Position numbers and translations under genes: made by a program
NCBI RefSeq assembly: GCF_014695395.1
Contig: NZ_JACJOF010000028.1
Coordinates: 62,001 to 126,000 of the forward strand
Direction of reading: 5' to 3'
From: Nodosilinea sp. FACHB-131
Lineage (GTDB): Bacteria; Cyanobacteriota; Cyanobacteriia; Phormidesmidales; Phormidesmidaceae
DNA length: 64,000 nt
In this document: positions 28,719-31,357 of the stretch, piece by piece
How positions within the stretch are numbered: position 1 is the stretch's first letter
Layout of the letters: each line of letters begins with the position of its first letter
The notes under the pieces: model-generated
What the model saw: the letters and a program-made list of their open reading frames with translations, nothing else
What the model was told of the DNA's origin: nothing
The model's database searches: none

Positions 28719-28796
28719 TCTCCCTGATCTTACGGTTGCTCAGGGTATGGTGTTTTGAAAGCTTTGCCCAACCCGAGCCAATCGTTTCTACCTCAA

Positions 28797-29747
28797 ATGG
28801 CCAACGCGCTTTTTAAGCCCCAGTTTTTGATGGTTTGCGGCCTCTCGGCGGCTCTGGTGTCCTGCTCGGGCGAAGGGCAGGGCAGCAGCGGCCCGACGCG
28901 GTTTGTCAGCATTCAGCCCATTCAGGTGTGCGACGACTTTGGCGTCTTTTGCGCCGACCTGGCCACCTTTGAAGAAGCTACCCGCAAAATTTGGGCCCAG
29001 GCCAACCTCGACGTCAGCTTTTTGGCCCCCAATCGGCTCAACGCCAGCCGCTTTCTCACCATCGACAACCAAGCCGAGTTTGCCGAGCTATCCTTTGCCG
29101 GCGGGGCCGGAGCCTTTGGACGCAACCCGCTTTCAACCCGCACCTCTGGCCCCATCAGCCTCTGGTTTGTAGAGAGTATCTTCCCCTCAGAAGGGCTTGA
29201 AACCTTTGGCCTGGGATGGATTGACCAAAATGGCGTTTTAATCGACGACGATATTCTCACCTTTAATAACGGCGTGGGCCGCCTCGACACAGTGGCCCAC
29301 GAAATTGGTCACAACCTGGGCCTAACTCATGAGGGCCTTGGGGCCGGGGGCGTGAATAATCTGATGACCGATGGCAGCTTTCGCAATTCGCCCAGCACTC
29401 TCGACGACATTACCCCCGATGGTGCGCGGGTAGATCAGCTCACCGATCGCCAAATTGATGAAGCCCGTGACAGCGGCTTTGCTCGCACTGCGCCAGAATC
29501 CTCTGCCGACAGCGCCCCCCGCGAACTACTCACCACGCTGCCTCCCCTGGCAGACGCAGCTCCTGATGCGTTACCCTGGGTTGCCCCGCCTAAAGTAACC
29601 CCAGTCACCGACCTGGCCCTGCTGCCTGAGGCCGCTTTTGCCGCGACAGCACAGACTCCCCAACCCATTCCCAACGGCCCGGCGATGACGCTGCTAACGA
29701 CGGTACTGCTGGCGGGCTATCTACGCTGGCAGCCCCGAGGGCGGTGA
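28797..29747 (+). CDS. metzincin-type metalloprotease, predicted lipoprotein
   Basis: A 316-residue exported protein. A signal peptide ends in the lipobox L-V-S-C23, so it is probably lipid-anchored. The zinc motif H168-E-I-G-H172-N-L-G-L-T-H178 is the extended metzincin HExxHxxGxxH, and M190 in NNLMTDG is a good Met-turn candidate. A Pro/Ala-rich linker precedes a C-terminal hydrophobic helix and basic tail beginning PIPNGPAMTLL, which resembles a membrane-anchoring or sorting tail. The subfamily cannot be named. TTG at 28755 opens the frame, but ATG 28797 puts the signal peptide at the start. The stop overlaps the next gene. Confidence 0.8.
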   Translation: MANALFKPQFLMVCGLSAALVSCSGEGQGSSGPTRFVSIQPIQVCDDFGVFCADLATFEEATRKIWAQANLDVSFLAPNRLNASRFLTIDNQAEFAELSFAGGAGAFGRNPLSTRTSGPISLWFVESIFPSEGLETFGLGWIDQNGVLIDDDILTFNNGVGRLDTVAHEIGHNLGLTHEGLGAGGVNNLMTDGSFRNSPSTLDDITPDGARVDQLTDRQIDEARDSGFARTAPESSADSAPRELLTTLPPLADAAPDALPWVAPPKVTPVTDLALLPEAAFAATAQTPQPIPNGPAMTLLTTVLLAGYLRWQPRGR

Positions 29748-30412
29748 TGACGGTGCTGATTGGCTGGCTGCTAGTAGCTCAGGGAATGATGGCCGTCGTG
29801 AACGGGTCTATCCCCTTTAGTGAGACGGCACGAGCCACCAGCACTCAGTTGTCTTTGGGCTTGGCCTGGTCTAGCTGGACTACTCTGCCCGGTTTCGTTC
29901 TTCTATCGCAGTCACTGCCTGTGCTTGGCCAGGATTCCATTCCTTACCCGCCGATACTGCGCCATGAAACATCGCCCGCAGGCAACTACCACCTGATTTT
30001 GACGCTAGGGAAAGACGAGGCGGGTGCTCGGCGCACCACCGCTAGCCTGTTTGAGACCTTGGGCGATCGCTGCCAGCAGGTCTGGTCGCACACTCTGCCC
30101 CATAGCTACGGCCCCCGTCTTGCCCTGGTGAACGACACCGGCACCGTCGTACTGCTCGACGAATGGATCAGCGTGGCCAGTTCTCGCGCCATTGTGGTGC
30201 TGGGTTTGAATGGGGAGGTCGAGGCCCAGCACAGCTTTGATGATATTGTCGAGGTCACTGGCCAGTCGCGAGCGGAAGTCGTTGATCAAGCTGCCCAGGG
30301 CTTTTGGCTAAGCGGCAACCCTGAGATGGAGCCCACGGGCGATCGCCTGACAATTCCTACCGCTGGAGGACAGCTCAGCTTAGATTTGGCAACGGGAGAA
30401 ATGGGGTTTTAG
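29744..30412 (+). CDS. conserved hypothetical exported or membrane-anchored protein
   Basis: A 222-residue protein of unknown family. The first 20 residues are hydrophobic (signal peptide or anchor) and a second hydrophobic patch lies near residues 50-62. The rest alternates short strands and Gly/Asp turns (LILTLGKD, VVLLDEWI, IVVLGLNGEV), suggestive of a beta-propeller or beta-sandwich. GTG at 29744 overlaps the metzincin stop; ATG at 29747 is equally possible. The overlap implies translational coupling to the protease, so a regulator, chaperone or partner role is conceivable but not shown. Confidence 0.6.
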   Translation: MMTVLIGWLLVAQGMMAVVNGSIPFSETARATSTQLSLGLAWSSWTTLPGFVLLSQSLPVLGQDSIPYPPILRHETSPAGNYHLILTLGKDEAGARRTTASLFETLGDRCQQVWSHTLPHSYGPRLALVNDTGTVVLLDEWISVASSRAIVVLGLNGEVEAQHSFDDIVEVTGQSRAEVVDQAAQGFWLSGNPEMEPTGDRLTIPTAGGQLSLDLATGEMGF

Positions 30413-30655: not shown

Positions 30656-31357
30656 ATGGCTAAGGGTGATCAAATTTACGTCATGCGCGATCTGGCGGGG
30701 GTGCCTGGGCTATATCAGCACCACGGCATCGACTGCGGCGATGGCACCGTCATTCACTACAGCAAAGCCCGAGACATTGCCGAGATTGCTCGCACCAGCT
30801 ACGATGCCTTCTCGTGGAACAATCCGGTCTATACCGTTCGAAAATCGCTGATTTATGACCCTGACGTTGTCGTCGAGCGGGCCACCAGCCGCCTAGGCGA
30901 GCGTCAGTATGACTTGCTGCTGAACAACTGTGAACACTTCGCTAACTGGTGTACCACAGGTCGCAGCGAAAGTCGCCAGCTGGCCAACTTTGGCTTGCGC
31001 ACCGATCAGCTCAACCTGCCCGAACTGCGGCGACTGGCCGAGGGCGATCGCCACACCACCACCCCCGCCGAAGCCCGTGCCAACTTTCAAAAAGCCCTGG
31101 GCGACATTGCCGCTGCCTACAACACCACCCTGGCCGATCAGCAAACCGCCTATAAAACAGCTGACGAATGGCATCACGTTGCCCAGAAAGCCCTAGCCAT
31201 CGGTCGAGAAGACCTCGCTAAAGCGGCGCTTCACCGCAAGGTCGCCGCCAATAAGCGCATCGAAACCCTCACGACCCAGCTCAGTGAACTTGTGGAACTG
31301 GAGCTGAATCTTCAGCACAATCGGGCATTCGCAGAACGGCGTCTGGCGATGGAATAA
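30656..31357 (+). CDS. LRAT/NlpC-like domain fused to a PspA-like helix
   Basis: A 233-residue two-part protein. Residues 1-105 resemble the LRAT/H-Rev107 papain-like fold: YQHHGI places a histidine near residue 22-23 and NNCEHFANW carries the conserved Cys92. Cys-His pairs of this family act in acyl transfer or hydrolysis. Residues about 145-233 are helical and resemble a PspA/IM30 segment, with W172 and GREDLAKAALHRK. PspA proteins bind and remodel membranes, so the fusion would bring a lipid-acting enzyme to membranes (inference). The start is ATG 30656. It stands alone. Confidence 0.72.
   Translation: MAKGDQIYVMRDLAGVPGLYQHHGIDCGDGTVIHYSKARDIAEIARTSYDAFSWNNPVYTVRKSLIYDPDVVVERATSRLGERQYDLLLNNCEHFANWCTTGRSESRQLANFGLRTDQLNLPELRRLAEGDRHTTTPAEARANFQKALGDIAAAYNTTLADQQTAYKTADEWHHVAQKALAIGREDLAKAALHRKVAANKRIETLTTQLSELVELELNLQHNRAFAERRLAME

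Follow-up and report, generated by a model that had tools for sequence, protein, structure and literature searches.

A single gene of Nodosilinea sp. FACHB-131 joins an LRAT-type thiol enzyme domain to a helical hairpin which, judged from profile comparisons, is derived from PspA/Vipp1, and which carries a conserved tip in a protein that lacks the helices flanking this hairpin in its relatives. The gene lies within a stretch of 64,000 nucleotides that was analysed as a whole (the window), and its parts are located in Table 1. Such a composition points to an enzyme that may be directed to membranes being repaired; the likeliest role appears to lie in repairing membranes or remodelling lipids, with no connection to retinoids, much as a first-pass annotation of the sequence had supposed. 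Vipp1 and PspA, the bacterial ESCRT-III proteins, are known as mechanical membrane remodellers, and an enzyme bearing a tip that receives their helix alpha5 would, if the proposal set out below is true, couple their mechanical action in repair with chemical changes to the lipids.

Table 1. Parts of the fusion gene and the frames upstream of it, in positions of the window
Feature	Position	Strand	Remarks
Fusion gene	30656..31357	+	233 aa and stop; LRAT domain, linker, PspA/Vipp1 hairpin tip
LRAT/NlpC-like domain, residues 3-104	30662..30967	+	PF04970, 2.7e-23; His22, His34, Cys92
Variable linker, residues 113-143	30992..31084	+	Without transmembrane segment; from entropy, hydropathy and pLDDT
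PspA/Vipp1-derived helical hairpin, residues 144-228	31085..31339	+	Equivalent to Vipp1/PspA 43-127; tip 165-195
Alpha5-acceptor equivalents	31169..31231	+	W172 (W71), L187 (L86), K189 (R88), L192 (L91)
RecJ-like ORF (by eye), 1110 aa	25386-28718		Upstream; long low-complexity C-terminal extension
Protein with weak Reprolysin match	28755-29747		Upstream
Protein without Pfam match	29744-30412		Upstream

The start and stop of the 233-aa frame were confirmed, and its first position aligns with a methionine in 79 of 83 full-length relatives, whose starts were placed at the methionine closest to the aligned start. These 83 distinct proteins of 221-242 aa were pooled from several searches, two broken loci (L090, L092) having been excluded before counting; in the former a fusion copy is split across two frames, and in the latter the frame stops soon after the LRAT domain. 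The two-part anatomy proposed in the first pass is upheld by matches of LRAT (PF04970; 83 bits, cut-off 24.3) to residues 3-104 and of PspA_IM30 (PF04012; 7.1e-5, 23.0 bits, model positions 48-126 of 220) to residues 150-228, and the residues it singled out, H22, C92 within NNCEHF, W172 and GREDLAKAALHRK, are correct in the window protein. Of the two profiles that it proposed as a check, LRAT exceeds its cut-off, whereas PspA_IM30, in a separate part of the chain, falls short of the 33.9 bits required. Between the two, the linker (residues 113-143) has the highest mean entropy of five regions compared (2.59 bits), and the maximal 19-residue hydropathy is 0.28 over the entire protein and 0.25 past residue 104.

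Conservation among 52 non-redundant fusions is highest in the LRAT domain, at a mean entropy of 1.14 bits. All 83 full-length relatives have His22, His34 and Cys92, which bears out the earlier claim of LRAT-type catalytic residues; N90, N91, E93, H94, F95 and W98 are likewise invariant (83/83), the catalytic cysteine lying inside the NNCEHF motif at residues 90-95. Two histidines thus precede the cysteine of NCEHF in the window protein and in all 83 relatives, a His-His-Cys order which we take to be the permuted order of NlpC/P60. AlphaFold2 models reached a mean pLDDT of 71.9 from 25 sequences and 75.6 from 62, with several loops at low confidence and values under 50 across linker residues 109-135. 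The LRAT fold is present in the predicted model: the first model superposes on human PLAAT3 (7zom) with Z 13.0 and rmsd 2.0 over 95 residues at 25% identity, further PLAAT structures score close behind, and structure prediction, which had been recommended as a check, thereby agrees with the domain assignment. An ordinary NlpC/P60 peptidoglycan hydrolase is not favoured, given that the match is to LRAT and that no N-terminal signal peptide was seen by eye.

In the single protein the PspA match is weak, and the NCBIfam PspA model (TIGR02977) gives 1.5e-6 over residues 161-215, far under its equivalog cut-off; homology of the hairpin was therefore tested in four ways. PF04012 is matched at E<=0.01 by 25 of 25 aligned members (best 2e-10), all of which also match LRAT, so the fusion is kept in homologues as anticipated. 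A profile of the same 25 sequences, searched against PDB sequences, retrieved 22 distinct sequences at E<=0.01, comprising 13 of Vipp1/PspA (best 1.2e-9), nine of PLAAT/HRASLS/LRAT (best 6e-9), and nothing else. A PspA/Vipp1 profile built from 30 proteins of the window's and related genomes matches all 83 full-length relatives (21.6-54.3 bits), and alignment of the fusion and PspA/Vipp1 profiles with hhalign scores 89.8 (probability 98.4%), against a mean of 13.2 and a maximum of 20.4 in 100 column shuffles that preserved heptad class. The C-terminal PspA-like segment is thereby confirmed. Chance coiled-coil similarity is rejected by the profile search of PDB sequences together with the heptad-preserving shuffle control. 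Fold searches with the predicted model could not settle the origin of the hairpin alone. Foldseek returned no match at E<=0.001, and ESCRT-III chains, Vipp1 and PspA among them, are numerous in its matches up to E 0.1; in superposition of the hairpin, unrelated coiled coils reach Z 12.4 against 11.9 for Vipp1, with similar scores for chemoreceptors, and the list consequently says little on this part. The profile tests bolster homology of the hairpin, and not the claim of docking considered below.

The alignment of residues 144-228 with Vipp1/PspA 43-127 needs no gap; its register was taken from L032, one of the two PspA/Vipp1 proteins of the window's genome (L032, L033), and confirmed with the 30-protein profile. 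The AlphaFold2 model places helices at 137-181 and 185-232, and at the tip the ten-residue mean pLDDT rises to as much as 98. The protein has no helix alpha0: the PspA match begins after it, at model position 48, and is preceded by the LRAT domain and the variable linker. Helices alpha3-alpha5 are also absent, the window protein ending at the equivalent of about PspA position 132, and alpha6 is likewise missing. Alpha0 (residues 1-22) is described as the membrane-binding helix in both PspA and Vipp1 (PMC8281802). The first-pass description of this part as a membrane-binding element is therefore not sustained: what is retained is the tip of the alpha1/alpha2 hairpin, a site of protein-protein contact within the polymer. 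In Synechocystis PspA, the fixed contacts between hairpin and alpha5 are reported as W71, K74, R88, L91, F196 and M212, a second interface as R44, K55, L125, K128, L138 and R142, and the residues tested for ATPase activity as R44, E126 and E179 (PMC11746142); in Vipp1, L86 cross-links to alpha5 (PMC8281802).

Counts of these contact residues in 52 non-redundant fusion proteins and 30 genuine PspA/Vipp1 proteins divide them into two sets. The equivalent of W71 is tryptophan in 52/52 fusions (29/30 genuine proteins), that of R88 is arginine in 46 and lysine in six (R/K in 30/30), that of L91 is leucine in 40 and isoleucine in 12 (leucine in 30/30), and that of L86 is leucine in 48 (30/30). Position 74, arginine in all 30 genuine proteins, is valine in 51 fusions and isoleucine in one, V175 of the window protein standing where PspA has K/R74, and the alpha5 groove of the fusions is thus not identical to that of PspA. 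In contrast, R44 (30/30), K55 (30/30), L125 (29/30) and E126 (30/30) are fixed or nearly so in genuine PspA/Vipp1, and the same positions vary freely in the 52 fusions. Mean entropy among the 52 non-redundant members is 1.37 bits at the tip (165-195) versus 1.92 and 2.27 bits in the shafts; L209 and L212, in the second shaft and outside the tip, are also nearly invariant. Together this pattern indicates that the surface which in PspA/Vipp1 holds alpha5 of a neighbouring subunit is kept with one consistent change, and that those positions of side-by-side packing and ATPase activity which were compared have been released.

From these features we infer an enzymatic activity, a lipid substrate, docking on alpha5 and a role in membrane repair. 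Our preferred, if tentative, reading is that the protein may be a PLAAT-like lipid hydrolase or acyltransferase docking on alpha5 of Vipp1/PspA assemblies. It would be a thiol enzyme of the cytoplasm, PLAAT/LRAT-like, that acts on acyl lipids by hydrolysis or acyl transfer, with catalysis through Cys92 together with His22 and His34. The hairpin tip would bring this enzyme to stressed or growing inner or thylakoid membranes, and would accept helix alpha5 of a genuine Vipp1/PspA subunit in a membrane-bound assembly; the hairpin would thus act as an address tag, in place of the hydrophobic segment of related LRAT proteins. The cyanobacterial substrate is more likely PG or galacto- or sulfolipids than phosphatidylcholine, the latter to our knowledge not being a usual lipid of cyanobacteria. 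The fuller proposal, in which a severed ESCRT-III hairpin tip captures alpha5 as a tag and lipids are remodelled at repair sites, a hydrophobic anchor taking this place in other lineages, is possible but more doubtful. If it is true, then an ESCRT-III hairpin is used as a transferable interaction module, and a single gene copy with one cysteine and one tryptophan would provide a simple genetic handle on local lipid turnover in thylakoid repair.

The replacement of K/R74 of the alpha5 groove by valine in 51 of 52 fusions would also suit a hairpin that serves only self-association or direct lipid binding, with no link to a Vipp1/PspA polymer. Hairpins of such a kind often self-associate, and many unrelated coiled coils superpose on this one. 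We nonetheless regard that explanation as rather unlikely, given that conservation is strongest at positions grouped in the PspA tip, residues of the alpha5 contact among them, L209 and L212 outside the tip notwithstanding, and given that alpha0, the known lipid-binding helix, is absent. Absence of the protein's own alpha5 might also be read differently: retention of most of the alpha5 acceptor without an alpha5 is the design expected of a chain terminator, a decoy or regulator which would cap or block alpha5 of Vipp1/PspA and limit polymer growth, catalysis being secondary or absent. With invariant catalytic residues, and an LRAT domain that is the best conserved region of the protein, such a function seems improbable.

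A departure from lipids altogether, with the LRAT-type domain acting as a non-lipid thiol hydrolase in PPPDE-like deconjugation or in signalling with FHA/kinase neighbours, would draw on weak matches to Peptidase_C97 (PPPDE), reached at E<=0.01 by 14 of the 25 members, and on upstream genes of the FHA family, which occur in 23 of 58 loci and in one scanned representative also encode a Ser/Thr kinase domain. In the window protein Peptidase_C97 scores 16.1 bits against 83 for LRAT, the closest solved structures are PLAAT phospholipase/acyltransferases, and many relatives have hydrophobic tails, all of which make the non-lipid alternative an improbable one, if less so than a decoy. The neighbourhood itself was compared through blastp clusters in 58 fetched loci. 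An FHA-cluster gene lies upstream on the same strand in the 23 loci, with another frame intervening before the fusion in L056 and L067, and is preceded by a zinc-ribbon and FHA cluster gene in 22 of them; the Pfam scan covered representatives, L061 standing for the two clusters and L073 for itself, and the FHA protein of L073 also bears the kinase domain. Neither the window nor its nearest relatives have these neighbours. Where they occur, they hint at control of the fusion by phosphorylation. Downstream of the fusion gene, the window encodes a protein without a match and a phosphodiester glycosidase, and clustering of the neighbours in the fetched loci brought out no psp gene. Loci with the FHA-type upstream arrangement are found among L047-L073, plus L084 and L090, and in some a gene of 6-phosphogluconolactonase type lies ahead of the FHA genes.

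Among characterized systems, the PLAAT/HRASLS proteins (PLAAT3, 7zom) share with the fusion the LRAT fold, the NCEHF motif with its catalytic cysteine and the His-His-Cys order. PLAATs have a C-terminal membrane helix; the fusion lacks a hydrophobic C-terminal anchor and has the PspA hairpin instead, and its activity is predicted. PspA/Vipp1 (IM30, bacterial ESCRT-III) share the tip of the alpha1/alpha2 hairpin and most of the alpha5-contact residues, whereas the fusion lacks alpha0, alpha3-alpha5 and alpha6, does not keep R44, K55, L125 and E126, and has an added enzyme domain. Within cyanobacteria, the same LRAT domain occurs in TM-type proteins, where a hydrophobic segment replaces the hairpin, and in Prochlorococcus/Synechococcus proteins, which mostly carry a hydrophobic segment and a helical tail without a PspA score. 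The remark in the first-pass annotation that no standard name exists for this combination is fair, yet a fusion of PspA_IM30 with NlpC/P60 was already mentioned by Ravi et al. (2024; mSystems, PMC11237479), in one sentence with the exemplar AFZ52345.1, for which modification of phosphatidylcholine is predicted. That fusion resembles the window protein in uniting the same two superfamilies in one protein and in its predicted lipid modification; the term LRAT is absent from the main text of that article, and its passages on the fusion describe neither hairpin-tip anatomy nor distribution (PMC11237479). Compared by description only, AFZ52345.1 is likely to belong to the same family, and if so the fusion as such is already in print. 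Results of the present analysis are the assignment of the enzyme domain to LRAT, the restriction of the PspA part to its tip, the comparison of interface residues and the distinction of tail types. Among the open-access papers searched, none joins LRAT with PspA, and none of those on lecithin retinol acyltransferase in cyanobacteria concerns the window protein, as judged by title and the start of the abstract.

A protein search of 386 cyanobacterial genomes, evenly drawn from the phylum, gave matches in 102, of which 44, the window's own genome included, hold a near full-length match; outside that genome these share 39-54% identity, and each of the 44 has one full-length fusion copy. In two further genomes (G027 and G036, with loci L117 and L118, respectively) both parts are present and are joined by a longer linker. 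LRAT itself is matched in 98 of the 386 genomes and exceeds its cut-off in 93. The window's genome contains one LRAT match, and two full-length PspA/Vipp1 proteins besides the partial match of the fusion. Of 172 relatives the best 80 were retained; 56 of these loci match across nearly the entire query, in addition to L090 and L092, and include Leptolyngbya, Microcystis, Moorena, Spirulina, Pleurocapsa, Prochloron and Phormidesmis; the other 22 are picocyanobacterial and match in the LRAT part only. The 12 closest named loci of these best 80, at 81-97% identity, belong to Leptolyngbya, Nodosilinea, Phormidium, Tildeniella and a filamentous cyanobacterium. Full-length PspA/Vipp1 is encoded in 45/45 other hairpin-type genomes examined (43, plus G027 and G036), in 7/7 genomes taken for the TM type, and, above cut-off, in 31 of 32 family-f20 genomes with an LRAT gene, which are taken for picocyanobacteria on grounds of size and sequence likeness and whose LRAT genes have no PF04012 match at E<=0.01. 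Co-occurrence with PspA/Vipp1 does not discriminate between the types, as 52/52 hairpin and TM genomes and 31/32 f20 genomes hold one. A PspA_IM30 match was not found in f20 genomes G314 and G107, the former of which has an LRAT protein.

The tails that follow the LRAT domain differ in type. In the 83 fusions the maximal 19-residue hydropathy after this domain is -0.03 to 1.41 (median 0.46), as compared with 1.78-2.41 in nine TM-type LRAT proteins (from 20 stretches fetched). The picocyanobacterial proteins (L093-L114; Prochlorococcus and marine Synechococcus), mostly with a hydrophobic segment and a helical tail, span 0.92-1.97 (22 proteins; median 1.78), and three further f20 LRAT proteins have values of 0.78, 1.39 and 1.58, such that the hydropathy ranges of the tail types overlap. 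L117 and L118 have a hairpin plus a hydrophobic segment (hydropathy 1.77 and 1.87), and they are among the relatives that do pass the PF04012 cut-off (34.0 and 35.7 bits, respectively). Both kinds of tail are missing from two short LRAT proteins (L115, L123); of the other LRAT loci, L128 and L132 are fragmented, and L133 and L134 are distant. Homology of the picocyanobacterial tail to the PspA hairpin is not established: the PspA/Vipp1 profile matches 0 of 22 of these proteins, and hhalign on the 16 of 22 that hold the motif used for cutting gives a probability of 6.7% against the fusion hairpin and 0.55% against the PspA profile. A tryptophan aligns with W172 in six picocyanobacterial sequences of one alignment, and in the tail alignment it is missing from four of 16 (L095, L096, L097, L098). 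Partner loss as the cause of the picocyanobacterial tail change is rejected on the presence of PspA/Vipp1 in 31/32 f20 genomes with LRAT. In many one-contig f20 genomes the LRAT gene is located at about 54-62 kb.

A tree of 70 LRAT domains, for which 42 were taken from the 83 fusions and 16 from the 22 picocyanobacterial proteins, was built on 111 columns, few for 70 rows, with a midpoint root for drawing only. On this tree the hairpin, picocyanobacterial and TM groups need one change each, the TM group of nine rows having support of only 91/82. L118 sits with the picocyanobacteria on one side of a 99/93 branch and L117 on the opposite side; the latter falls outside a 99/90 group that contains the hairpin and TM proteins. 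This arrangement would fit an ancestral LRAT protein that combined the two parts, one of which was lost in each later lineage; with a root placed at the midpoint, and no significant match between the picocyanobacterial tail and PspA, this is put forward as a suggestion. L117 and L118 may be intermediate between proteins with an anchor and those with a hairpin. A mobile-element setting or acquisition by horizontal transfer is not favoured, since no plasmid or phage place covers 80% of the protein (0 of 30 matching plasmid records and 0 of two phage records do so at one place) and the tree groups by tail type. LRAT/NC-domain genes were seen on two Acinetobacter phage contigs (H11, H12) and in various plasmid records (H1-H10), these Acinetobacter phage and plasmid matches covering at most 65% of the query among the matches listed. 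Lastly, ORFs with partial PspA hairpin matches were observed beside a full-length PspA/Vipp1 pair in four genomes (G312, G253, G095 and G235; for example G312:C1:2794220-2794882), and in G312 and G253 there are two such partial matches in frames of 323-329 codons.
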